Positions 9,193 through 33,512 of a DNA stretch of 64,000 bases are shown in pieces. Source of the DNA: Candidatus Rokuibacteriota bacterium. Lineage in GTDB: Bacteria; Methylomirabilota; Methylomirabilia; Rokubacteriales; CSP1-6. Under the pieces are notes generated by a model. It was not told the DNA's origin. It saw nothing but the letters and a program-made list of their open reading frames with translations, and searched no databases. A program made the translations under genes and the position numbers. Each line of letters starts with the position of its first letter. Position 1 is the stretch's first letter. Location: NCBI GenBank assembly GCA_003221515.1, contig QHSI01000105.1, forward strand, positions 1-64,000, read 5' to 3'.

Positions 9193-9981
9193 CTAGATCG
9201 CCGACAGCGCGGAGTTCGGCACATCCGTGATGAACATGTGCCCCGGGCTGTGCGTGATCATGAACGACGGCTTCGAGGCGAGCGCGACGGCCTGGGGCGT
9301 GACACCGCAGGCCCAGAAGACCGGCACGTCGCCAGGGCGAAACTCCTGGGCGTCCCCCCAGTCCGGTCGCCCCACGTCCTTGATACCGATGGCGGCGGGA
9401 TCGCCGATGTGCACCGGCGCCCCGTGCGCGCCGGGGAAGCGCGCGCCCGCGGTCACCGCGCGGGCGAGCTGGCCGGCCGCGATGGGCCGCATCGAGACGA
9501 CCATCGGCCCGTGGAAGACACCGGCGGGCCGGCACGGCGTGGACGTGCGCCACATCGCCACGTTCTTGCCCTGCTCGACGTGCCAGAGCCGGATGCCCGC
9601 GTCCAGCAGCGCCCACTCGAAGGTGAACGAGCAGCCGAGCAGGAACGCGACCAGGTCGTCTCGCCAGTAGGGCGTCGCGTCGGTCACCTCGTCGGCGAGC
9701 ACGCCGTCCTTGTAGATCCGGTAACGCGGGATGTCCGTTCTCAAATCCGCGCCGGGCGCGGCGCCGACCGGCTCGGGCGAGCCGACCTCGGTCACCTCGA
9801 TGAGCGGGCACGGCTTGGGATTGCGCTGGCAGAACAGCAGGAAGTCATAGGCGAGGTCGCGCGGGAGCACCGCGAGATTGGCCTGGACGTAGTTCTGCCC
9901 GAGGCCCGCGGTGATGCCGCTCAGCTTGCCCGTGCGGATATCCTGCCGGATCTCCCGCGGATGGCGCGCGTCGATCGGCAT
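9193..9981 (-). CDS. DUF1445 / D-glutamate cyclase-like putative hydro-lyase (YcsI family)
   Basis: A 262-residue YcsI-type protein. The family hallmark FWACGVTPQAVALASKP is present, followed by THSPGHMFITDVP, and the N-terminus has AGLGQNYVQANLAVLPRDLAYDF. The mammalian homologue converts D-glutamate to 5-oxo-D-proline, and Bacillus carries the gene beside ycsF, kipI and kipA. The same neighbourhood here supports a role in feeding or salvaging 5-oxoproline. The ATG at 9981 lies nine bases after the dehydrogenase gene. The substrate in this organism is inferred from context only. Confidence 0.88.
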   Translation of the reverse strand: MPIDARHPREIRQDIRTGKLSGITAGLGQNYVQANLAVLPRDLAYDFLLFCQRNPKPCPLIEVTEVGSPEPVGAAPGADLRTDIPRYRIYKDGVLADEVTDATPYWRDDLVAFLLGCSFTFEWALLDAGIRLWHVEQGKNVAMWRTSTPCRPAGVFHGPMVVSMRPIAAGQLARAVTAGARFPGAHGAPVHIGDPAAIGIKDVGRPDWGDAQEFRPGDVPVFWACGVTPQAVALASKPSFMITHSPGHMFITDVPNSALSAI

Positions 9982-9990
9982 GAGACGATT

Positions 9991-10977
9991 CTACCTCCGG
10001 CCGAGACGTGGCCACACGTCCGGATTCACGAGCACGTCCGGCCGCTCGCCCCGCAGCACGCGCAGCATCTCGCCCGACACCTGCATGGCCGCCTGGCGGG
10101 TCGCCTCGCGCGTGACGCCGGCGACGTGCGACGAGCACACGACGTTCTGGAGGTTGAGCATCGGGTTGTCGCGCGACGTCGGCTCGTCCTCCCAGACGTC
10201 GAGACCGGCGGCGGCCAGCTTGCCCCGCGTCAGCGCCTCGAAGAGCGCCCGCTCGTCCTGCACGGGGCCGCGCGAGGTGTTGATGAAGATCGCGCCCGGC
10301 TTCATGAGGCCGAGGCTCTTCTCGTTGATCATGTGCTTCGTCTCCGGCGTGAGCGGCGTGTGACACGTGAGCACGTCGACGTGAGCGAGAAGGGCCTCGA
10401 GGCTCGCGACCGGCTCGGCACCGCGCCGCCGCAGCTCGTCGTCGGCCACGTACTTGTCGTAGCCCAGCACGCGCATGCCGATCGCGCCGGCGAACTTCGC
10501 GACGCGCCGGCCGACGTTGCCGACGCCGACGATGCCGAGGGTCTTGCCGGCGAGCTCGGTGTTGCCGGACCGAGGCGCGCCCCAGTCGGCGGCGCGCGTC
10601 GCCTTGTCGACCGCGAGCGTGCGCTTCACGCAGTTCAGCATCAGCATCAGCGCGTGCTCGGCCACCGCCTGCGAGTTCGACCCGGGCGCGTGGACCACCG
10701 CGACGCCGAGCCGTGTCGCCGCCGGAATATCGACGGTGTCGAGCCCGACGCCGTGCCGGCCGACCACCTTCAGCTGCTTGCAGGCGGCCATCAAGCTCTC
10801 GGTGCAGTCGGGCCGGATGCGAAACAGGATCGCCTGGGCCTCGGCGGCGACCTTCACGAGACCGGCCTCGGTTTCGTCCTCGCACACGACCACCCGGGCT
10901 TCTTTGTCGAGGAGCGCCTTGCCGTCGGGGTGGATCGGACCGGCGAGCACGACCAGTGGGCGCGGATCAGTGGCCAT
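9991..10977 (-). CDS. D-isomer-specific 2-hydroxyacid dehydrogenase (SerA-like)
   Basis: An NAD-dependent 2-hydroxyacid dehydrogenase of 328 residues. The Rossmann motif is GIVGVGNVGRRVAKF. The substrate-side arginine region is INTSRGPVQDERALFEAL, and the catalytic histidine is in CSSHVAGVTREAT. It is shorter than regulated phosphoglycerate dehydrogenases because it lacks the C-terminal ACT domain. The substrate cannot be told from sequence: 3-phosphoglycerate, glyoxylate/hydroxypyruvate and other 2-keto acids are all possible. It heads the tightly packed minus-strand run, and glyoxylate or hydroxypyruvate would fit its link to glycine metabolism. Confidence 0.88.
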   Translation of the reverse strand: MATDPRPLVVLAGPIHPDGKALLDKEARVVVCEDETEAGLVKVAAEAQAILFRIRPDCTESLMAACKQLKVVGRHGVGLDTVDIPAATRLGVAVVHAPGSNSQAVAEHALMLMLNCVKRTLAVDKATRAADWGAPRSGNTELAGKTLGIVGVGNVGRRVAKFAGAIGMRVLGYDKYVADDELRRRGAEPVASLEALLAHVDVLTCHTPLTPETKHMINEKSLGLMKPGAIFINTSRGPVQDERALFEALTRGKLAAAGLDVWEDEPTSRDNPMLNLQNVVCSSHVAGVTREATRQAAMQVSGEMLRVLRGERPDVLVNPDVWPRLGRR

Positions 10978-11019
10978 CGAGCGGATCTCCTTTCGCGGAG
11001 GGCGAGCCCTCGAATTCTA

Positions 11020-11781
11020 CTACTTCCAGGCGACCAGGACGAGCCGCCGGGCGTCGAGTGAGAAGGGGGTGCCGTCGAGCCCGCCGAAGAGCTCGACCTT
11101 GCGCCAGCGCTCGGGACGCAGCATGGCGAGGAGCTCGTGGGCGGAGTAGAGCCGGATCTCGCTGTCGCCGATCAGCTCCCCCGCGCCGTCTTCGGATTTG
11201 GCCGTTGCGCGCTTGAGACGCCACCAGCGAGCGCGCCAGCGACTCGTGGTCGGATCGAACTCGTTCTCGACGCGGATCGTCGAGCTGCCCCGCCGCATGC
11301 GCTCTTCCGGCGGCAGCGACCGCACGCACTGGTCGCGGTTGCGCGTGTCCACGACGAAGGTGCCGCCGGGCTTGAGCGCGCGCCAGAAGCGGTCGAGCAC
11401 CAGCCGGTCTTCGTCCTCGGAGAAATAGCCGATGGAGCTGAACAGGTTCACGGCCAGGTCGAACTCACCGGAGAACTCCATGTCGCGGATGTCCTGGCAG
11501 GCGAGCGTGAGCGCGACACCGGCGTCGGCGGCGGCCTTGCGGGCCCGGCCCAGCTCGGTCTCGCTGAAGTCGACGCCGGTCGTCGGGGAGCCCCGGCGCG
11601 CGAACTCGACCGAGTGGCGGCCGAACCCGCACGGGGCGTCGAGCACGCTGGCGCCGGAGTCGAGCGCGGTGACGCCGGCGATCCACTGCACGTCGCTCGC
11701 GGCGTCGGTCGACTCGACCGACTGCGAGATCTGCGGCCACGCTTCGCGGAAGAAGCGTTCGCTCTGGAACACGAGGGGCAT
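11020..11781 (-). CDS. Class I SAM-dependent methyltransferase
   Basis: A 253-residue methyltransferase. Motif I is VLDAPCGFGRHSVEFA, followed by TGVDFSETELGRARKAA, and the post-I/II region is DIRDMEFSGEFDLAVNLFSS. The acceptor is unknown. The ATG at 11781 leaves only 12 bases to the oppositely oriented ATG of the epimerase remnant at 11794. If these starts are right, the promoters of both genes must lie inside each other's coding DNA, or the methyltransferase is transcribed from an internal start. It is 42 bp upstream of the dehydrogenase and may belong to the same transcript. Confidence 0.85.
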   Translation of the reverse strand: MPLVFQSERFFREAWPQISQSVESTDAASDVQWIAGVTALDSGASVLDAPCGFGRHSVEFARRGSPTTGVDFSETELGRARKAAADAGVALTLACQDIRDMEFSGEFDLAVNLFSSIGYFSEDEDRLVLDRFWRALKPGGTFVVDTRNRDQCVRSLPPEERMRRGSSTIRVENEFDPTTSRWRARWWRLKRATAKSEDGAGELIGDSEIRLYSAHELLAMLRPERWRKVELFGGLDGTPFSLDARRLVLVAWK

Positions 11782-25118: not shown

Positions 25119-27653
25119 TCAGGGCTCGGCGGACAGCGGAACGACGGTGAAGCTCGTGATGACGCCCGTCCGGGCCAGCTCACGACCGTACGCTTCCGCC
25201 TCCACCATCGTCCCGAATTGGCCGATCGAGACGGTCCCGGGTCCGGCCCCCTTGCCGCTCGGGATCGAGAGCCGGATCGTGAAGCCCGCGGCCCTGGAAG
25301 CCTCCTGAGCCCGTGGCGCGTCGACGACCGTCTCCGTCAGAGCCGGGCGGTCCGCGGCGCTCGACCGGGGGTGCGCCGACGAGATGAGGCGCGAGAGCCA
25401 CACGGCGCCCGTGACGATCAGTACCGCGCCCGCGATCGCCGCGCCCCAGCGGACCAGACGACGACGAACGGCGCCGGAGCCTCCGGTCGGGCCGGGCTTG
25501 GCTCGCTCGATCTCCGCGGCGTAGCGGTAGCCGTACGACGCCATCTCCGCGTAGTCGGAGCTCAGGTCCGGCCTCACCCCGCTCAAGCAGACGCCCAGTA
25601 ACCGCGTGCTCGTCGCGTCCAGCAGGGCCTTGGCCCTTCTGAGCGCGACGCGGGGCATGTGCCCCACCCGGATGACCAGGAGCGTCGCGTCGGCGCGGGA
25701 GGCCAGGACCGCCGCGTCGGGCACCGGCAGGAGCGGGGAGGAGTCGAGGATCAGGTAGTCGTAGCGCCCTCGCGCTTCGTTCAGAACCTTGACCAGACCC
25801 TGCGAGCTCAGGAGCTCGGACGGGTTGGACGGCGGGTAGCCGCTCAGCAGCACGAAGAAGTTGTCCATCCCGGGAGAGTCCAGCATCCGCTCCATACCGA
25901 CCTTTCCCATCATGAGGTCGGCGATCCCCAGGGTCACCTCGCCGAGGCTGGCGGATCCCAGCACCACCTCCGACAAGCCCGGCGCCTTCGCGAGCCCCAG
26001 GACGCGCCGGATGGAGGGTCGTCGCAGATCGGCTTCGACGAGAAGCGTCTTCTTGCCGAGCTGGGCCAGGGTGATGGCCAGGTTGATGGCCACCGTGGTC
26101 TTTCCCTCCATCTGCGAGCCGCCGGCCACCAGAATGGTCTTGAGGTCGCGCTCGAGCGTCGCGAAGACGAGGTTCGTCCGAAGGCTTCGGAACGCCTCAG
26201 CGAGGCGCGATTTCGGGGCAAACAGGCTGGTGAGAGACGGGTGCCGCCCTCGCGTCTCCTCGGAGGCGATCGCCTCCGTGGCTTCCTCGGCGAGGTCGAC
26301 GGTCGGATCCAGGGCGGGAATGACCCCGAGGACGCGAGTCTCCATCAGCGCCTCGACTTCGTCGATGGCTCCGATGGAGGTGTCCAGGGTCTCCACGAGG
26401 AAGGCGAAAATCAACCCGAGGATGAGCCCGAGGACGAGTCCGATCTGGGCCTTGCCCATGGGCTGCACGGGCTCGACGGGCGTGGTCGGGGCGATGGCCG
26501 GTCTGACGACACTGACCTCCGCCCCTTGCTCCTTTTCCTTGATCAGCGCCTCTTGGAGCCGCTCCTTGAGGAGCGAGAAGATGCGCTCGTTCACCTTCAC
26601 GTCCCGCTCGATCCGCGTGGCTTCGAGGGCGGCGCCCGGCAGCGCCGCCTGCTTGACCTGGACGCTGGCGATGGCGTTTTGCGCCTCGGCCGCATTGGCC
26701 TTCAGGGCCCGACGCTTCGCGGACAGCGCTTGCACGAGGCTCTGGCGAACGTTGGCGATCCGGGCCTCGACGCCCTTCACCTGGGGATGCGACGGGAACA
26801 GGGTGAGGAGGAGGTCTTGCCGCTCGATCGTGAGCTCGCTCAGAGAAGCGTGGAGCTTTGCCAGAGCCGGATCGGCGTCCGTCGACGAGGGCGAGGGGCG
26901 ATTGTCGCTTCGTCCGTCCTCGACGAGCCGAAGCTGCGTCTCCGTCACGTTGATCTCCCGCGTGACACGCTCGAGCTCCGCCTCCATTGCCCCCCGCCGG
27001 CTCGCGGTGGCCCGCGCCTCGTCGGGGATCGAGAGCCGCTGGTCCAACTCCTGAAAGTTCTTCATCTGCTCCTCGGATTGGCGCAGGCGCTGCCCCACCT
27101 CCTTCAGCTGGGTCTCGATGAACCGCCGCGCGTTCACCACCTGCTGCGTGCGGTTCGCGAGGTTTTCTTCCTGAAACGCCTCGGCCACCCGATTGGCGAC
27201 CTGAGCCGCGGTCGAGGCGTTCGCGGACGTGGCCGAGATCTCGATGAGGCTCGTCCCGCCCGACCGGGTGACCTGCAGCGCCGCGCCAAGCTCGCCGACG
27301 ATGTCCTGGTAACGCGTCGAGGCCCGGATCTCGGCGGCCGTCGTGTCGGGCGGGATCAACCCGAGCTTCACGGCGGCGCGGCTCACTACCGGGAAGCTCG
27401 TGATGAGCGCCACCTGCGTTTCCAGATCCCCCACCGGGCTGACGTTCAGCACGTCGCTCAGCAGCAGCCCGGACACGTTGACCACCCGCTCGAATCGGAC
27501 GGCGGCCGTGGCCCGATAGACCGGGCTGGGCGCCAGGAGAAACGCGTAGGCGAGGCTGGCGAAGCTGGTGGCGACGGCGACGGTGACGACGAGCCACGCT
27601 CGGCGCCGGATGATCCTCCAGCAATCGCGGAGATTGAGATCGTACTGCGTCAT
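25119..27653 (-). CDS. GumC/Wzc-type chain-length determinant fused to BY-kinase and a C-terminal SPOR domain
   Basis: An 844-residue protein of the polysaccharide co-polymerase class. TM1 lies about residues 19-41, a Wzz-type periplasmic region with coiled coil (to ~395) follows, and TM2 is at about 401-420. A bacterial tyrosine kinase domain follows: Walker A GGSQMEGKTT at 511-520, A' LLVEADLRRP at 537-546 and Walker B YLILDSSP at 633-640. A tyrosine cluster (Y701, Y707, Y709, Y711) comes next. Unusually the protein then continues with a third hydrophobic helix (about 737-755) and a SPOR-like domain (about 788-842, ending FTVVPLSAEP). It should control chain length and link export to peptidoglycan. 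Confidence 0.88.
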   Translation of the reverse strand: MTQYDLNLRDCWRIIRRRAWLVVTVAVATSFASLAYAFLLAPSPVYRATAAVRFERVVNVSGLLLSDVLNVSPVGDLETQVALITSFPVVSRAAVKLGLIPPDTTAAEIRASTRYQDIVGELGAALQVTRSGGTSLIEISATSANASTAAQVANRVAEAFQEENLANRTQQVVNARRFIETQLKEVGQRLRQSEEQMKNFQELDQRLSIPDEARATASRRGAMEAELERVTREINVTETQLRLVEDGRSDNRPSPSSTDADPALAKLHASLSELTIERQDLLLTLFPSHPQVKGVEARIANVRQSLVQALSAKRRALKANAAEAQNAIASVQVKQAALPGAALEATRIERDVKVNERIFSLLKERLQEALIKEKEQGAEVSVVRPAIAPTTPVEPVQPMGKAQIGLVLGLILGLIFAFLVETLDTSIGAIDEVEALMETRVLGVIPALDPTVDLAEEATEAIASEETRGRHPSLTSLFAPKSRLAEAFRSLRTNLVFATLERDLKTILVAGGSQMEGKTTVAINLAITLAQLGKKTLLVEADLRRPSIRRVLGLAKAPGLSEVVLGSASLGEVTLGIADLMMGKVGMERMLDSPGMDNFFVLLSGYPPSNPSELLSSQGLVKVLNEARGRYDYLILDSSPLLPVPDAAVLASRADATLLVIRVGHMPRVALRRAKALLDATSTRLLGVCLSGVRPDLSSDYAEMASYGYRYAAEIERAKPGPTGGSGAVRRRLVRWGAAIAGAVLIVTGAVWLSRLISSAHPRSSAADRPALTETVVDAPRAQEASRAAGFTIRLSIPSGKGAGPGTVSIGQFGTMVEAEAYGRELARTGVITSFTVVPLSAEP

Positions 27654-27663
27654 GGCGCCGTCT

Positions 27664-28728
27664 CTATTTGACGAGCTCCTTGAGCAGGAAGTAGTTGGAG
27701 ACGGACTGGAGCGGAAGGGTCAAGAACTCGAGCGTCGGGCGAATCTGCGCGATGAAGGCGTTCCAGTCGCCGATGCGGCTGCGCGGGAAGACGATCAGAT
27801 CGTTGGTCTGGAGCACGATGTCCTGACTGCGGTCCGGGGCGCCGGTGAAGCTGCCCGCGAAGACCTCGACGATCTGCGGACTGCGCAGGTCGCCGCGAAC
27901 CACGCGGACACTCTCCAGGACCGCCGAGGATGTGGGCCCCCCGGCCATCGCCAGGATCTGAGAAACCCGGATGTTCGGCGTGAAGGGGTAGACCCCCGGG
28001 CTCTTCACTTCACCGAGGACGAAGACCTTCCGCTGTTCGTCCGGCGCTCGGCTCGGAACGAACACGACGTCTCCCGCGTCGAGGATCAGCTCTCGAAACC
28101 GCTGCCCCTCGGAGACGAGGCGAAACAGGTTGATCGTGTACGAATCGCCCTCCCGGCGCAGCAGACGGATCGCGCGCGAGTCGGCGTTGGCCGTCAGCCC
28201 TCCGGCCTCCGCCAGCAGATCGACGAGATTCGTCATTCCCTTCAGCGGGTAGACACCGAGCTTCTGGACTTCGCCCAGGACCGACACCGTCTTGCTCGCA
28301 TACTCCTTGACCGTCACTTCGACGGTGAGCTGTCGGTGCGTGGCGGCCAGGACGCGTCCGATCTCCGCTTCGGCCTGATCGGTCGTCAGTCCCGCGACCG
28401 CGGCCTCGAAGAAGCCGATGGTCACTCGTCCGTTCGGCCTCACCGCGGCCGACATCTTGTCCAGCGCGAGCTCTCGGGTCAGCGTGATGTCGAGGACGTC
28501 ACCGGCACCGATCCGGTATCGAGGGACACCGTCGATCGTGACGAAGGTCCGGTTCTCGGCGACGAGGGACGGGAGCACCAGGGGCTCCGCGGCCTCCGCT
28601 GGTGGCGAGGGAGCACCGGCCGTCCCGGGCGCCGTCGGCGGATGGATCGGAAAACCCACCGGCGCGCAGCCGACCACGCCGAGCGGGAGGAGGAAGAGGA
28701 ACGGCCACAAGCGGAGCAGACGGTTCAC
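27664..28728 (-). CDS. Polysaccharide export outer membrane lipoprotein (Wza-like)
   Basis: A 354-residue exporter. The signal peptide ends at GVVGCAP (lipobox Cys about residue 21). A Poly_export domain follows (YRIGAGDVLDITLTRELALD with GRVTIGFFEAAVAGLT), then two SLBB units (VLGEVQKLGVYPLKGMTNLV and VLGEVKSPGVYPFTPNIRVS). It forms the outer membrane channel for the polysaccharide made with the GumC/BY-kinase protein ten bases downstream. The stop overlaps the start of the upstream gene's last codons (ATGA at 28725-28728). The order matches exosortase-linked exopolysaccharide clusters. Confidence 0.9.
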   Translation of the reverse strand: MNRLLRLWPFLFLLPLGVVGCAPVGFPIHPPTAPGTAGAPSPPAEAAEPLVLPSLVAENRTFVTIDGVPRYRIGAGDVLDITLTRELALDKMSAAVRPNGRVTIGFFEAAVAGLTTDQAEAEIGRVLAATHRQLTVEVTVKEYASKTVSVLGEVQKLGVYPLKGMTNLVDLLAEAGGLTANADSRAIRLLRREGDSYTINLFRLVSEGQRFRELILDAGDVVFVPSRAPDEQRKVFVLGEVKSPGVYPFTPNIRVSQILAMAGGPTSSAVLESVRVVRGDLRSPQIVEVFAGSFTGAPDRSQDIVLQTNDLIVFPRSRIGDWNAFIAQIRPTLEFLTLPLQSVSNYFLLKELVK

Positions 28729-29636
28729 GGCGCGCCTCCTTCGGCTTCTCGATCGAGCGTCTCCTCCGTGACGAATCCGTGGATGTGGAGGAACGGGTGT
28801 TGGCTGAGATCGATGGCCGTGGACTCCGGCACACGCTTGCGGTGGCGGACGAGGACCATCACGGTCGGGCGGAGTGGGAAGCCTTCGTTCTTCGCCACCA
28901 CCCGACAGATCTCACCCGTGTTGAGGCGAACGAGTGAGCCCACCGGAAGGGTCGCCAGGACGCGAATCAAGGCCTTGAGGATCTGTTCGGGATACGTCCC
29001 CCGCTCGTGCTTGAGAATCTCCTTCATGGCCTCGGAGTGCCCCAGACCGGGTCGCACCGGCTTGCGGCGGACGAGGTTCTCGAGGTGGCCGGCAAGTCGC
29101 ACGATGTGAACGTGGTCGCGAATCTCCGTCGACCCGGCGTCTGACGCGTCGCCGGCCCCGTTCATGCGCTCGCGGAGCTGGACGAGCACCTCCGACACCC
29201 CCGCGTATTCGACCCCTAGGCCCTGAACGCGCAGGGGCTCGTCCTTGGGGCCCCGGCCGACGCCGCCCTCGTGGAGCAGGGCCGTCAGCCCGAGCTTGAG
29301 CAGCGCATCGTGTGCGTAGTTGAGCTGCGTCGCGATCTTCATCGAGAGCACGCAGACGTTCACCGCCCGCTCGGCTGGGTCGGCAGAACCTCCACGCGGA
29401 GTGAAAAACGGTAGGAGCAGAAGGTCGCTGGTTCGCAAGCTCTCGAGCAGCGTGCCCAGCGGGGTCTCGAGCATCGTGACGGAAAGCGCGGTGCCCGCTC
29501 GAACAGACGCCTGGACTTGGTGCATCGTCTCGACCGCACGATCGAACGCGTCGGTGGCGGCCTCGAGGTCTTCAGACTCGAGTGCTCCGGGCGCCGAGCC
29601 GAGCGTCTCCGATCTCTCGGGCACGGTGTCCGTCAT
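28725..29636 (-). CDS. Degenerate HD-GYP-domain protein of the exopolysaccharide cluster
   Basis: A 303-residue protein whose layout follows an HD-GYP phosphodiesterase, including the usual tail LPVGSLVRLNTGEICRVVAK then PLRPTVMVLV. The catalytic motifs are broken: the HD pair is replaced in LTALLHEGGVGRG by H-E, and no GYP motif is seen where HHE...GYP is expected (region LGHSEAMKEILKHERGTYPE). It is therefore unlikely to hydrolyse cyclic-di-GMP and may instead sense it or act as a scaffold. ATG at 29636; the 105 bp upstream are non-coding. Confidence 0.7.
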   Translation of the reverse strand: MTDTVPERSETLGSAPGALESEDLEAATDAFDRAVETMHQVQASVRAGTALSVTMLETPLGTLLESLRTSDLLLLPFFTPRGGSADPAERAVNVCVLSMKIATQLNYAHDALLKLGLTALLHEGGVGRGPKDEPLRVQGLGVEYAGVSEVLVQLRERMNGAGDASDAGSTEIRDHVHIVRLAGHLENLVRRKPVRPGLGHSEAMKEILKHERGTYPEQILKALIRVLATLPVGSLVRLNTGEICRVVAKNEGFPLRPTVMVLVRHRKRVPESTAIDLSQHPFLHIHGFVTEETLDREAEGGAP

Positions 29637-29741
29637 CGGCCGGGCTGGGTGGCCGCCGGAGAACGCCGGCGGAGGCGCGTCCGCGGAGTGCGCGGGACTC
29701 GACGGGCGCAGGAGCCGGACGAATCGCGGTGAAGTGCATGC

Positions 29742-30536
29742 TCACGCCAGCCCCGCCGCGACCCTCACGAGGGGAGCGCTCACGTCCTGGGCATTTCTCT
29801 TCTGGCCCTCGTACAGGCAGATGTCGCACAGCTTGTTGACGTTCCGCAGAATCCCGCGGCTCTCCTCGTAGATTGCCCGAACCGCGTCCTCGGTGAAGAT
29901 GGGCTGGGACGCGCCGGCCTTCTCGAGGCGAAAGTCGATGTACTGACTCGTTTGCTTTTCGTCGGGTGTGTCGAGGCTCAGGCAAAAGGCCATCCGTTGA
30001 CGAAACGCGTCGAATGCGTCGAGCGCCGAGCGGAGCGGCGGGAGCCCCACGAGGACGAGCGAGAGCAGTTGGCGATCGTTGGCCTGAAGGTTCAGGAGCA
30101 TCCGCAAATCCTCGAAGACCGCTTCGTCACTGATCAGATGCGCCTCGTCGACGATGAGCACCGTCGCCCTGCCCTCGGCGGCGTTCCCGAGCAGGTGGTC
30201 GCTCAGGCAACGGAAGAGGGCGAACCGCTGCGAGCTTGCCGGCGAGAGATCCAGCTGCATCGCGACCTCGTACAAGAACTCGTCCGGCGGCAGGGCTGGA
30301 TTGATCACGAGGCCCACGTCGTATTTCTCCTCGTCGAGCTCCAGCAGGAAGGCGCGACTCAACGTGCTCTTCCCGCACCCTGACTCCCCGGTGACGACGA
30401 CACCTCCCTGGCCACTGTCCACCGCGTAGACGAGTCGCTCGAGCGCGTCCTGATGGGCGGGCAGCGGGCAGAACACCGTCGGATCAGGAACGTTGCGGAA
30501 CGGCGAGCGCGCCAGCTTCCAGTAGCGTTCGTACAT
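29742..30536 (-). CDS. ExeA-like AAA ATPase (exosortase-cluster type)
   Basis: A 264-residue AAA ATPase starting MYERYWKLARSPFRNVPDPT, the characteristic ExeA/GspA start. Walker A is [11 protein letters not shown], Walker B is VLIVDEAHLI, and sensor-like residues are in LSLVLVGLPPLRSAL. ILRNVNKLCDICLYEG is the C-terminal winged part. In type II secretion ExeA handles peptidoglycan remodelling. Shorter forms without a peptidoglycan-binding domain, like this one, occur in exopolysaccharide/exosortase clusters. The gene follows the HTH gene by three bases and precedes the HD-GYP-like gene. Confidence 0.88.
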   Translation of the reverse strand: MYERYWKLARSPFRNVPDPTVFCPLPAHQDALERLVYAVDSGQGGVVVTGESGCGKSTLSRAFLLELDEEKYDVGLVINPALPPDEFLYEVAMQLDLSPASSQRFALFRCLSDHLLGNAAEGRATVLIVDEAHLISDEAVFEDLRMLLNLQANDRQLLSLVLVGLPPLRSALDAFDAFRQRMAFCLSLDTPDEKQTSQYIDFRLEKAGASQPIFTEDAVRAIYEESRGILRNVNKLCDICLYEGQKRNAQDVSAPLVRVAAGLA

Positions 30537-30539
30537 GCG

Positions 30540-30758
30540 CTAGGACGCGCCGTTCTCGCGCCCGGCGACGCGGTTGCGATCGGCCGGCGCGCGCTGAGCG
30601 CCGCCGGCCACGAGGTCCAGGATGCTCTTCCTTCTGAAGCGCCACCGGCGCCCGATCTTGTGCCCGGGAATGACCCCTTGCTCGGCCAGTCGATAGACGG
30701 TTTTCACGTGGACCTGGAGGAGCGCGGCCACTTGAGAGGGGGTGATTATTTCCTGCAA
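30540..30758 (-). CDS. Small excisionase/MerR-type helix-turn-helix protein
   Basis: A 72-residue DNA-binding protein. It consists of one HTH_17 domain (ITPSQVAALLQVHVKTVYRL then AEQGVIPGHKIGRRWRFRRK) and a short polar tail. TTG at 30758 is chosen because homologues start immediately before the HTH and GGAG lies about ten bases upstream. An in-frame ATG at 30890 would add a 44-residue extension crossing the promoter described below. As first gene of the exopolysaccharide operon it is a candidate autoregulator; an inverted repeat lies 35-67 bp upstream. Confidence 0.7.
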   Translation of the reverse strand: MQEIITPSQVAALLQVHVKTVYRLAEQGVIPGHKIGRRWRFRRKSILDLVAGGAQRAPADRNRVAGRENGAS

Positions 30759-30792
30759 CGACCGTTGACTCCTTCCCGCACTCTCAATCTCC

Positions 30793-30825
30793 CTCGTGCT
30801 CCCGGGTGCGCCTCTAGAGCACGAG
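30793..30825. promoter_or_regulatory. Inverted repeat upstream of the HTH gene (candidate operator)
   Basis: Perfect 9-bp arms CTCGTGCTC (30793-30801) and GAGCACGAG (30817-30825) are separated by 15 bp. The right arm overlaps the -12 part of the sigma54-like promoter on the minus strand, and the left arm would fall in the leader of that transcript. That geometry suits either a repressor operator for the small HTH protein or an RNA hairpin in the leader. Confidence 0.45.
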
Positions 30826-30833
30826 CTGTGCCA
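30818..30833 (-). promoter_or_regulatory. Sigma54-type (-24/-12) promoter for the exopolysaccharide operon
   Basis: The minus strand reads TGGCACAGCTCGTGCT, close to the sigma54 consensus TGGCACG-N4-TTGCA. The invariant GG (30832-30831) and GC (30820-30819) have the correct 10-bp spacing. Transcription would begin near 30807, about 49 bases before the TTG start of the HTH gene. A very similar site precedes the gene at 55412. Exosortase/PEP-CTERM exopolysaccharide systems are known to use sigma54 with the PrsR regulator, so the site fits the genes it precedes. Confidence 0.5.
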
Positions 30834-31093
30834 GGGCGCACCATCGGGCGGAAGTGGCCGGTTCGACGAGTGTTTGCAGCCATGAATCACACCCTCGGCC
30901 AGTGAGGAGGGGACAAAGTGCTACCGCTTTGCGGCTGGACTGACAGTTTCTGGTCCATCTGTCCGCGCTCTGGAACCGAGTCGTGGCGAGCGACGGCAGT
31001 AAGGACGCCAGCATTTCGTGAGGCTGGCGATAGACTCGGAAAGACATCGTGACGAGCGGAATTCAGATCAGGCTACGAACTACCTCGGCGTGA
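30834..31093. other. Intergenic region between the divergent exopolysaccharide arms
   Basis: About 260 bp with no convincing gene. Its left end is bounded by the sigma54-like site serving the minus-strand operon. The plus-strand genes (HPrK-like kinase onward) must also be transcribed from here, but I see no sigma54 or sigma70 match in that direction. It is slightly less GC-rich than its surroundings (for example around 30945 and 31050-31090). A TGA at 31091-31093 closes the kinase frame upstream. Confidence 0.5.
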
Positions 31094-31183
31094 ATCGAGA
31101 AGATCGACCGCCTCGGGTGGGCGGCGGGCCGGTCGTTCGTTTCCTACGGGCTCACGATCGGCGTTCGCACGAACGAGCCGCGG

Positions 31184-31909
31184 ATGCTGTCGCACATCGT
31201 GAATTGCCTGCCGCCGGGCTACCGGCCCTCGGAGGCGACTCGAGTGGACCGCCTGTACTCGCTCGTCGTCGGGCGACCCGCGTCAGGTCTTGGGCTCCGG
31301 CGGTTCACGCTGCTCTATGCCGACGCGATGAGGCTGGCGCGATCGCTCGAGGTTCCCGAAGTTCTGCGAGCGCTCGAGTCCGACATCCAGCTCTACGTCG
31401 CTGCCGGCGCCCGACGCCGGCTCTTCGTGCACGCGGGGGTCGTCGGGTGGCGCGGGCGCGCGATCGTGATCCCGGGACGGTCCATGAGCGGCAAGAGCAC
31501 GCTGGTCGCCGCCTTGATCGAGGCTGGGGCCACCTATTATTCGGACGAGTACGCCGTCTTCGATGACCAGGGCCGCGTCCATCCCTACCCGAGAGCACTC
31601 TCGCTCCGCGACGACTCGGTGGCAGGCCGAAGGGAATTGCCGATGCCGGGGCCGGGCCGCGCTCCTGGGCCACTGCCGCTCGGACTGCTCGCGGTGACGC
31701 GCTACCGCCCCGGCGCCCGCTGGAGACCTCGGCCACTCTCTCTCGGACGCGCGGAGATCGAGCTCCTCGGTCACACCGTCGCGGCGCGGCAGCAGCCGGC
31801 ACGGGCGCTGAGCGTGTTGTCCCGAGCCCTGGCCGGAACGATCGCCTTGAAGGGCGCCCGGGGAGAAGCGGCCGACGTGGTCGACGCCGTGATCGGCGCG
31901 GTGTCGTGA
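31184..31909 (+). CDS. HPr kinase-related protein (HprK-related kinase A type)
   Basis: A 241-residue P-loop kinase distantly related to HPr kinase/phosphorylase. Walker A is PGRSMSGKST, and the HprK-like acidic segment after it is YYSDEYAVFDDQGRVHPYPR. VHAGVVGWRGRAIVIPGR is typical of the family found beside PqqD proteins. Homology-like sequence continues upstream of the ATG (GRSFVSYGLTIGVRTNEPR, 31127-31183) to a TGA at 31091 without any ATG, GTG or TTG. Either the N-terminus is truncated or a rare start is used. TGA at 31907 abuts the next ATG. The substrate is unknown; in paeninodin-type lasso clusters a homologue phosphorylates the peptide. Confidence 0.78.
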   Translation: MLSHIVNCLPPGYRPSEATRVDRLYSLVVGRPASGLGLRRFTLLYADAMRLARSLEVPEVLRALESDIQLYVAAGARRRLFVHAGVVGWRGRAIVIPGRSMSGKSTLVAALIEAGATYYSDEYAVFDDQGRVHPYPRALSLRDDSVAGRRELPMPGPGRAPGPLPLGLLAVTRYRPGARWRPRPLSLGRAEIELLGHTVAARQQPARALSVLSRALAGTIALKGARGEAADVVDAVIGAVS

Positions 31910-32442
31910 TGACGAGCGGCTTCGGCGAGTCGATGCCTCAGGCGAGAACGACGGATCTCCTCATCGAAGTTCTGCGCGACGAGACCCTGGTCTACGACCT
32001 CAGACGGCACCGGGCGCACTGCCTCAACCGGGCCGCCGCGCTCGTGTGGAAGCATTGTGACGGGCGCACGACCGTCGCGGCAACGGCCACGATTCTTGAT
32101 GAGGCACTGCGGCTGTCAGCGGGCGAAGCGCTAGTCAGAACCGGGCTCGACCAGCTCACGCGGGCGCACCTGCTGAATGGCCCGCCCGACATCCGCGGTG
32201 CGCGATCTCGCTACTCGCGGCGGGCGGTCTTGCGGGCGCTCGGCCTGACCGGCGCGGCGGCACTGCTTCCGCCGCTGGTCGAGACGGTCGTCTCGCCGGT
32301 CTCCGCCGAGGCCGCTTCGTGCCTGACGGACGCCGAATGCCGAGCGTTGATCCCTCCCTTCTGCTCAGGGCAGCCGATCTGTGGAAGCCCCGGCAGTTGC
32401 TGCCAGCCACGGGGGATGCGGTGCAGGACCGGCCAGTGCTGA
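31909..32442 (+). CDS. PqqD-domain protein fused to a twin-arginine segment and a Cys-rich tail
   Basis: A 177-residue protein with three parts. Residues ~13-92 are a PqqD-like winged-helix recognition domain (VYDLRRHRAHCLNRAAALVW). Residues ~101-137 are a twin-arginine, signal-like segment (YSRRAVLRALGLTGAAALL). Residues 138-177 hold eight cysteines (C138, C144, C152, C158, C164, C165, C172, C177) with knottin-like C...C...C...C...CC...C...C spacing. PqqD domains bind leader peptides for modifying enzymes, so this looks like recognition domain and exported substrate in one chain. It is not a PQQ biosynthesis gene, as no pqq genes are near. ATG at 31909; a GTG one codon earlier is possible. 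Confidence 0.8.
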   Translation: MTSGFGESMPQARTTDLLIEVLRDETLVYDLRRHRAHCLNRAAALVWKHCDGRTTVAATATILDEALRLSAGEALVRTGLDQLTRAHLLNGPPDIRGARSRYSRRAVLRALGLTGAAALLPPLVETVVSPVSAEAASCLTDAECRALIPPFCSGQPICGSPGSCCQPRGMRCRTGQC

Positions 32443-33512
32443 GGTCAGCCGCCGCGCTCCGGGACATCGAGCGTCGACGCGGCGAGCTGGTGCGGTCCCT
32501 CCTCGCCGGGTCGTGGCGCCGATCACCGTCGCCGCCGTCAATCTCGGCTGACGCGCTGGCGCGGGTCGCGTCGCTCCTCGCCCGAACGGGATCGGCGGGA
32601 CTGGCCTGGTGGAGGCTCCGCGATTCAACGTTGAGCGCGTCGGCGGCGGCGCTCGACCTTCGCCAGGCCTACCGTCTTCAGACGCTCGAGGCTCGACGTC
32701 ACGAGCGTCGCATCGAGCAAGCCATCCGGATCCTCCGAGAGGCGAGCGTAGAGCCGATCATGGCCAAGGGCTGGGCCGCGGCCCAGCTCTACCCGGAGCC
32801 GGGACTGCGCCCCTACGGCGACATCGACCTGTGGGTTCGGGCCTCGGAGCACGGCGCGGCGCAGACGGCGTTGCACTGTCCCGTCGGACAGCGCTGTCGG
32901 GTGGATCTGCACGCCGAGTTCCCGCAGCTCGACCGGAGCTGGGATGAGCTCTACGAACGCTCGCGGCTCGCGCGCGTCGGTGCGGTCGACGTGCGCGTGC
33001 TCGGGCTCGAGGACCATCTGCGGCTCCTGTGCCTGCACATGCTCAAGCATGGGGCCTGGCGCCCGATCTGGCTCTGCGACATCGGGGCAGCCGCGGAGTC
33101 TCTGCCCTCCGATTTCGACTGGGAGGTCTGTCTTCGCGGCCCGGCGCGCCGGGCCGAGTGGGTCAGTTGTGCCATCGGTCTGGCGCGAGAGCTCCTGGGG
33201 GCGCGCCCGAGGGGCGAGCGACCGGGGACCCGTCTGCCTCGGTGGCTTCCGGCCGCGGTGCTCCGGCAGTGGTCCGATGAGGAGCACTACATGGTCAGCC
33301 CCTCGATGGCGTTCGCGCTTCGACGTCGCGATCGAATCCTCAAGGCGCTCAGGCTCCGCTGGCCCAACGCCATTCAAGCCACGGTCGGGCTGGGCGGTCC
33401 CTTCAACGGCGTGCCCAGGCTTCCGTTTCAACTGGGTGAATGCGTGCTGCGAACGATCGCCTTTGCCCGGCGCGCTCCCGAGCTGATGCGGACTGGCTCG
33501 CCGAGCGTCTGA
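32436..33512 (+). CDS. Nucleotidyltransferase family protein (NTP_transf_5-like)
   Basis: A 358-residue putative nucleotidyltransferase. The core motif is KGWAAAQLYPEPGLRPYGDI followed by DLWV, giving K111 and the metal aspartates D129 and D131. A conserved LEDHLRLLCLHMLKHGAWR and WLCDIGAAAE follow. The GTG at 32436 is chosen because it overlaps the PqqD-fusion stop by seven bases (GTGCTGA) and removes ~39 residues that are only the PqqD tail read in another frame. Proteins of this family occur with HprK-like kinases in lasso-peptide and exopolysaccharide clusters. The target here is unknown. Confidence 0.78.
   Translation: MLRSAAALRDIERRRGELVRSLLAGSWRRSPSPPSISADALARVASLLARTGSAGLAWWRLRDSTLSASAAALDLRQAYRLQTLEARRHERRIEQAIRILREASVEPIMAKGWAAAQLYPEPGLRPYGDIDLWVRASEHGAAQTALHCPVGQRCRVDLHAEFPQLDRSWDELYERSRLARVGAVDVRVLGLEDHLRLLCLHMLKHGAWRPIWLCDIGAAAESLPSDFDWEVCLRGPARRAEWVSCAIGLARELLGARPRGERPGTRLPRWLPAAVLRQWSDEEHYMVSPSMAFALRRRDRILKALRLRWPNAIQATVGLGGPFNGVPRLPFQLGECVLRTIAFARRAPELMRTGSPSV

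Follow-up and report, generated by a model that had tools for sequence, protein, structure and literature searches.

A 64,000-nt stretch of DNA from Candidatus Rokuibacteriota bacterium (assembly GCA_003221515.1, contig QHSI01000105.1, positions 1–64,000; hereafter the window) carries three intact plus-strand genes in the order K-B-N, which overlap by a few bases. They encode an HprK-related kinase (K), a protein joining a PqqD-type RiPP (ribosomally synthesised and post-translationally modified peptide) recognition element (RRE) to a twin-arginine translocation (Tat)-like signal and a cysteine-rich tail (B), and a nucleotidyltransferase (N). The best explanation, which we favour with fair confidence, is that K-B-N constitutes a small peptide-tailoring and export system in which the kinase is a selenoprotein.

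The K-B-N cassette and its distribution

An earlier sequence-only reading of the window had described three overlapping plus-strand genes and proposed a search for the triplet across genomes. All three genes are present, and using local hidden Markov models we found homologous triplets, adjacent on one strand and in the same order, in several phyla, indicating that the arrangement is more than chance. A scan of GTDB species genomes returned 24 loci in Gemmatimonadota, Acidobacteriota, Chloroflexota, Methylomirabilota and Devosia. Among 119 relatives, a single further genome of the class (G087) has a full-length B (51% identity), and a nucleotidyltransferase-like gene follows it there. Of the 53 interior K loci, 35 have B next to K, 38 have N adjacent, and 29 have both, as K-B-N on one strand, although these counts are not independent because many of the loci are close relatives. 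In 346 Acidobacteriota genomes, B was detected in 36 and K in 39, of which 35 are shared (Fisher p 2.4e-42); B and N share 30 (p 3.7e-32). In one Gemmatimonadota locus (L018, 5609–9929), about 4 kb of other genes lie between K and B-N, which are adjacent in relatives; this gap is probably an insertion.

We also searched for K in nine genomes, the majority selected for carrying B without an adjacent K. Exactly one strong K was found in seven; in the remaining two, L022 and L023, B lies on short contigs. B reaches 38 copies in G126, 14 in G123 and 5 in G124, each with a single K match, and is mostly single-copy elsewhere. One K for many hypervariable B proteins is the pattern of an enzyme with its precursors, and from these genome comparisons K is probably the enzyme and B its family of precursor substrates. 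The sequence-only reading would have been undermined by genomes in which the three genes are regularly separated. Such separation was found in part: two Pyrinomonadaceae (those with 14 and 38 B genes and one K) have a K locus without adjacent B. K and B nevertheless co-occur almost obligately, and a single K for that many B genes strengthens the enzyme–substrate interpretation.

The three proteins largely correspond to what that reading had seen in them. K, called a kinase with an HprK-type P-loop, matches TIGR04352 (HprK_rel_A) with an E value of 9e-18, at 64.4 bits below the family cut-off of 200. It carries the P-loop PGRSMSGKS and an SDE motif, and P127, G128, G133, K134, S150, D151 and E152 are invariant in an alignment of 16 K proteins. 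Its AlphaFold2 (AF2) model (mean predicted local distance difference test, pLDDT, 86) matches PEPCK and HprK/P structures. N, correctly recognised as a GDIDLWV nucleotidyltransferase, scores 86.9 bits against PF14907 (cut-off 31.2), with G167, D168, D170, D196 and H198 invariant in 15 aligned proteins. A sequence search among solved structures gave no close relatives.

B was described as a PqqD domain with its own Cys-rich tail. It scores 26.1 bits against PF05402 (PqqD; cut-off 23.4), a family matched by 31/31 B homologues. In its AF2 model, pLDDT is >90 across most of the RRE and reaches 90–95 over the tail, and the nearest solved folds in a Foldseek search are complexes of the lasso RRE TbiB1 with its leader (probability 1.00, E 5e-3) and PqqD, so that both family score and fold place B among RRE/PqqD proteins. 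The RRE is followed by SRR, a hydrophobic stretch and AxA, and then by 8 Cys in the last 40 residues. This fusion of the RRE with signal and Cys tail is found in 31/31 aligned homologues, in all of which the RR and a Pro are invariant. The Tat-like signal before the tail, like the conserved Ser/Thr and the in-frame TGA described below, had escaped the sequence-only reading.

To describe the anatomy of B we counted positions from the conserved Pro (P) in 107 B proteins, which are constant up to the processing-like site and variable beyond it. Ala occupies P+3 in 57% and P+5 in 76%, and Ser/Thr occupies P+7 in 86%, compared with a background of about 18% and with roughly 10–24% at the following tail positions. 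The tails contain a median of 8 Cys, and the number of Cys is even in 94%, which would fit disulfide bonds in a peptide that is exported. The Cys spacing of the window B (C5C7C5C5CC6C4C) is closely shared with Gemmatimonadota homologues, and several B tails follow the knottin order C-C-CC-C-C. With regard to export, B has the twin-Arg, the hydrophobic stretch and the AxA of a Tat substrate, and TatC is present in the window's own genome and in 20/21 carrier genomes; the signal is internal and scores 14.3 bits against TIGR01409, below the cut-off of 16.7.

Two further loci show the B header or its family in other company. In L036, two 2OG-Fe(II) oxygenase genes (9242–9871 and 10498–11130) are interleaved with four tandem RRE-signal-Cys genes, so this precursor family may also be served by another kind of tailoring enzyme. 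In L076 (31–1926, G137), a large VWA/YfbK protein takes the place of the Cys tail behind an RRE with a twin-arginine header, with a similar match in G127; given this fusion, the RRE-signal header may serve other cargo too.

An in-frame TGA and a bSECIS-like hairpin in K

The start of K placed by the sequence-only reading, 31094, had to be revised: the codon there is ATC, which is no start, and it directly follows an in-frame TGA (31091–31093) through which the K frame continues upstream. Where K genes have a stop at the aligned position it is TGA in 24/24, and TAA or TAG in none. In homologues, the codons upstream of the TGA share the frame of K and abut it with no gap; they encode a short conserved peptide, approximately LPRLKxxST, which is degenerate in the window (IRLRTTSA). 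In the close pair L019/L020 the nucleotide differences before the TGA are all synonymous, and in L121/L122 mostly so, indicating that this is coding sequence. K therefore has what is expected of a bacterial selenoprotein gene in this respect, an in-frame UGA with coding sequence on both sides. Homologues with Cys at the UGA position, a second such feature, are also found: three (L039, L184, L190) have TGC/TGT there. Two more keep a continuous frame, one with Trp and one with Gly.

A hairpin with a 6-bp stem (CCGCCU/GGGCGG) and a 5-nt loop (CGGGU) follows the TGA in the window, its stem beginning 14 bases past the TGA and its loop lying 20 nt from the UGA. The rules for a bacterial selenocysteine insertion sequence (bSECIS) are a loop of 3–9 nt, an upper stem of 4–16 bp, a G in the first two loop positions, a distance of 16–37 nt from the UGA and a minimum free energy (MFE) <= -7.5 (PMC13188914). 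The hairpin agrees with these rules: its loop has 5 nt and mostly reads NGGNU, its stem has 6 bp, the distance is 20 nt, and the 48-nt region has an MFE of -11 to -26, although in some genes the MFE fold of this region differs from the hairpin. All six stem pairs can form in 23/24 TGA genes, compared with three and five pairs in the two Cys homologues measured. Moreover, codons in the stem deviate from each gene's own usage: Arg is CGC in 23/24 (7.7 expected) and Ala is GCG in 22/22 (9.0 expected). This bias is strongest inside the stem and weaker or absent just outside it. A search for an Rfam family at the start of K gave just a non-significant riboswitch match on the opposite strand.

The machinery for selenocysteine (Sec) is present as well. 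In the window's own genome, selA, selB and tRNA-Sec are encoded together, all above cut-off (SelA 567 bits, SelB 360 bits, tRNA-Sec 69.8 bits). SelB is above cut-off in 24/27 genomes tested; it is absent from Devosia, whose K has Cys, from G122, where the site is masked, and from G138, which keeps the TGA. Given the shared TGA, the bSECIS-like hairpin, the coding sequence upstream, the Cys homologues and the SelA, SelB and tRNA-Sec of the host, we predict that K is very probably a selenoprotein. It resembles known bacterial selenoprotein families in the UGA, the hairpin type, the Cys homologues and the Sec machinery in the genome. A 2026 review lists 119 prokaryotic families (PMC13188914), and no HprK-like or protein-kinase family appears in its table. 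No UxxC or CxxU redox motif is evident around the predicted Sec of K.

Alternatively, the TGA could be a real stop, closing a short upstream open reading frame (..ST*) coupled to K by termination-reinitiation, with K starting at the next codon or further down. ATG stands directly after the TGA in 18/24 loci, and TGA is a frequent stop in GC-rich genomes, both of which would fit. However, the codon is ATC, CTG or CAG in the other six, the window included; these genes have no start codon right after the TGA, and their downstream peptide is nonetheless conserved. A Shine-Dalgarno-like motif precedes the upstream in-frame start in 14/24 genes and the post-TGA codon in 1/24. Such coupling would also have to account for a frame that is always kept, with zero spacing and never TAA or TAG, for Cys, Trp or Gly in place of the stop in five homologues, and for codon constraint centred on the hairpin. 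We regard it as quite improbable.

As predicted, K comprises 286 residues from GTG 31049, with Sec at position 15. No Shine-Dalgarno sequence was seen before this GTG, and a start near 31049 is tentative for that reason. Starts at ATC 31094 or ATG 31184 were rejected because they conflict with the homologues.

Proposed mechanism and related systems

Our computations concern gene order, co-occurrence, residue conservation, the TGA, the hairpin and the Sec machinery; phosphorylation and the residue that receives it, what N does chemically, export through Tat and the role of Sec are inferred. B would be a precursor: its N-terminal RRE would remain cytoplasmic and bring the tailoring enzymes to the molecule of which it is part, while its internal Tat-like signal would direct export. 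K, with its HprK fold, would (poly)phosphorylate the conserved Ser/Thr just past the cleavage site, at position 2–3 of the B tail, and N would place a sugar or nucleotidyl group on the phosphate. The donor for N could come from neighbouring polysaccharide genes (WecA-type transferase, glycosyltransferases, epimerases) or from gmhA-hldE-like genes. Cleavage at AxA would free a disulfide-rich peptide, commonly of 25–60 residues, and the tagged peptide would end at the cell surface. The UGA in K would be decoded as Sec with the help of the bSECIS that follows it, and the Sec would then lie in a conserved N-terminal tail, LPRLKxxST-U-M.

Several observations weigh against this interpretation. Trp and Gly, each found in one homologue at the TGA position, are odd substitutes for Sec. 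Covariation in the hairpin is weak, with one two-sided change and 47/500 shuffles as good; it is formally weak because the stem hardly varies. The TGA genome without SelB, G138, is a further such point, possibly reflecting incompleteness, and SelB may simply be common across these phyla. In B, the Tat signal would lie unusually far from the N-terminus, at about 100 residues, and its scores against TAT models stay below cut-off; in addition, a second Ser/Thr, inside the hydrophobic stretch at P-4, is 93% conserved and represents the main alternative acceptor. Finally, N falls below threshold in 6/36 genomes with B, including the genome with 38 B copies.

B might instead serve only as an adaptor: tethered to the membrane, it would be an RRE chaperone presenting K and N with a separate precursor that has gone unrecognised, and its Cys tail would be structural or metal-binding. 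Discrete RREs act in this way in lasso and linear polyphosphorylated peptide (LPP) systems, and discrete RRE-kinase pairs occur in the window's own genus and family (L004, L005, L010), one of them also with N nearby. Against this, B reaches 14 or 38 copies for one K, and its hypervariable tails are combined with a constant RRE, signal and Ser/Thr, which is the pattern of a precursor. The signal, the AxA and the even number of Cys suggest that the tail is exported. Within the triplets we saw no other small conserved open reading frame, and some B genes adjoin 2OG-Fe(II) oxygenases instead. An adaptor role is thus unlikely, though it is the strongest of the alternatives. A reading in which K and N target a sugar or lipid from a neighbouring polysaccharide pathway, with B as the regulator or chaperone of that pathway, is improbable: many Acidobacteriota have WecA-like transferase, glycosyltransferase and UDP-GlcNAc epimerase genes beside K, and two loci have gmhA-hldE-like genes there, but Gemmatimonadota triplets (L016–L021) are intact without a detected polysaccharide cluster, and peptides are what RRE domains bind and what the characterised HprK-like kinases with an RRE partner phosphorylate.

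A self-presenting precursor tailored by K and N has its closest parallels in systems that phosphorylate a Ser of a peptide. Popov et al. 2026 describe LPP systems, which lack a cyclase and combine an HprK-like kinase with an RRE, an NTP transferase, a SipW-like peptidase and an exporter; there, Ser3 of a linear core is the residue that LppK phosphorylates (PMC13381572). BsfK likewise phosphorylates Ser3, and the RRE BsfB1 boosts its activity (PMC10368454). In pseudomycoidin, PsmK phosphorylates Ser and the nucleotidyltransferase PsmN adds a hexose to the phosphate (reviewed in PMC8498205). The sequence-only reading had suggested that the peptide is phosphorylated and/or nucleotidylated; sugar transfer to a phosphate is likelier than nucleotidylation, being the sole reported outcome that we found for such an enzyme.

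K-B-N shares with LPP an HprK-like kinase, an RRE and an NTP transferase (here the PF14907 protein, above cut-off), the lack of a macrolactam cyclase, a polysaccharide-locus context, a precursor with conserved N-terminus and variable C-terminus, and a conserved Ser just after the processing site. LPP systems are, as described, restricted to Bacillota and have a discrete RRE, a separate YxxPxV-leader precursor, the SipW-like peptidase LppS and an MsbA-like exporter, whereas K-B-N has its RRE within the precursor (fused in 31/31), Tat-like export, a disulfide-rich core and a predicted selenoprotein kinase. No SipW-like peptidase or MsbA-like exporter lies within or adjoining the cassette, trans-encoded partners not having been searched, and the leader motif YxxPxVLxHQxIxFETxxS is not present in B. 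Because three defining features of LPP are lacking (the discrete RRE, the peptidase and exporter in the cluster, and the leader motif), we treat K-B-N as LPP-like in its working and do not file it as LPP. Our best model, by analogy, would make it a relative of LPP and pseudomycoidin chemistry in which the RRE is built into a Tat-exported precursor.

The paeninodin, pseudomycoidin and Bsf lasso systems (PadeK, PsmK/PsmN, BsfK) resemble K-B-N in pairing a kinase with an RRE and a nucleotidyltransferase and in Ser phosphorylation, which for K is a proposal. The analogy drawn earlier with paeninodin-type enzymes was right, LppK/LppN and PsmK/PsmN being closer still. Unlike these lasso systems, the cassette has no cyclase, B2 protease or ABC exporter, and its target peptide and leader are unrelated; no macrolactam cyclase or B2 protease family was found among the window proteins scanned around the cassette. 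The earlier idea of a stand-alone system for an exported Cys-rich peptide, lacking both enzymes, is supported by our comparative genomics. The NCBIfam HPr-rel-A pair (TIGR04352 kinase and TIGR04353 PqqD-related chaperone) shows the same pairing, with a similarity to K that is significant yet below cut-off. Assignment of K and B to it was rejected, with 64.4/200 and 13.6/35 bits, both under cut-off; B further differs in carrying a signal and tail, and the models' names give no function. Our literature searches found nothing on an HprK-related kinase with PqqD and exosortase, on an RRE with Tat and a Cys-rich tail, or on a selenoprotein with PqqD.

Taken further, K-B-N could represent an undescribed class of peptide system, in which each precursor carries its own RRE and Tat signal and is modified in trans by one HprK-fold selenoprotein kinase, the Sec tail (LPRLKxxST-U) docking on, or being redox-coupled to, the RRE-precursor, so that tagging would depend on selenium. 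The kinase tail, which is PxL-like, might for instance bind in the groove of the RRE. We put this forward tentatively, as somewhat short of an even chance.

Genomic context and significance

Positions of the cassette features are given in Table 1. The start of B is probably ATG 31909, overlapping the K stop, with GTG 31906 as an alternative. N had been placed from 32319; given that its homology begins at about 32457, its start is probably GTG 32436.

Table 1. Features of the K-B-N cassette and its surroundings in the window
Feature	Position	Strand	Basis
K: HprK-related kinase, predicted selenoprotein, tentative GTG start	31049..31909	+	family match, catalytic motifs, fold, frame through TGA
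In-frame TGA, predicted selenocysteine codon	31091..31093	+	homologue alignment
bSECIS-like hairpin	31108..31124	+	stem conservation, codon bias, pair counts
K P-loop PGRSMSGKS	31472..31498	+	invariant residues in K proteins
B: RRE (PqqD), Tat-like signal and Cys-rich tail, proposed self-presenting precursor	31909..32442	+	
PqqD/RRE domain of B	31981..32172	+	PF05402 above cut-off; RRE fold
B: SRR twin-arginine motif, hydrophobic stretch, AxA processing-like site	32212..32316	+	
B Ser138 codon, proposed phospho-acceptor; first Cys comes next	32317..32319	+	Ser/Thr conservation
B 8-Cys tail, proposed mature peptide	32320..32439	+	Cys spacing, even Cys number, tail pLDDT
N: PF14907 nucleotidyltransferase, probable GTG start overlapping B end	32436..33512	+	PF14907 match
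N catalytic motif GDIDLWV	32817..32837	+	motif in translation
Divergent polysaccharide-export block, context outside cassette	25119..30536	-	profile matches

The genes adjoining the cassette encode HHH/ComEA-like, ComEC-like, HTH and AAA proteins. The divergent block contains a Wzz/Wzc-type kinase, an SLBB export protein and an XrtA-type ATPase, and matches NCBIfam exosortase-system models below their cut-offs. The two strong exosortase matches of the genome lie outside the block (25119–30890, minus strand), on contigs C53 and C23. An exosortase was found in just 12/23 carrier genomes; an obligate link was rejected on these grounds, and the exosortase association raised in the sequence-only reading was not supported in that form. 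Its exopolysaccharide link stood in part, a polysaccharide gene lying within 7 kb in 31/53 interior K loci, although the association is not universal and many of these loci are close relatives. A polysaccharide link is common, not universal, and does not require an exosortase. In the two Pyrinomonadaceae (L162 in G123; L133/L046 in G126), K, accompanied by N in G123, has heptose-type genes (gmhA, hldE-like) on one side and tsaB on the other, a hint that the donor could be a heptose.

Other HprK-like kinases were seen in related settings. In the window's genus and family (L004, L005, L010), discrete PqqD proteins of about 90 aa, with no fused tail, adjoin HprK-like kinases and have N-like genes nearby. 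In L002 (the window's own genome, C29:130078), L009 and L014, such kinases adjoin a methyltransferase-like gene, and L009 and L014 additionally hold a small PqqD protein. In L007 (972–1565), the gene after the HprK-like kinase encodes a Peptidase_S74-domain protein that bears a Tat-like signal and may be a further exported substrate.

We found the predicted combination of a selenoprotein kinase with tailoring of a Cys-rich peptide in no published family. If the prediction is true, K would be the first selenoprotein kinase of HprK-like fold, selenium-dependent and absent from the 2026 list of 119 families, and B would exemplify a precursor design in which the recognition domain lies inside the substrate, with up to 38 copies in one genome. 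In practical terms, gene callers cut K short at the TGA. For the kinase/RRE/PF14907 modules that stand beside polysaccharide genes, the question of what they do could then be put to a compact cassette in which both the acceptor residue and the enzyme are named.

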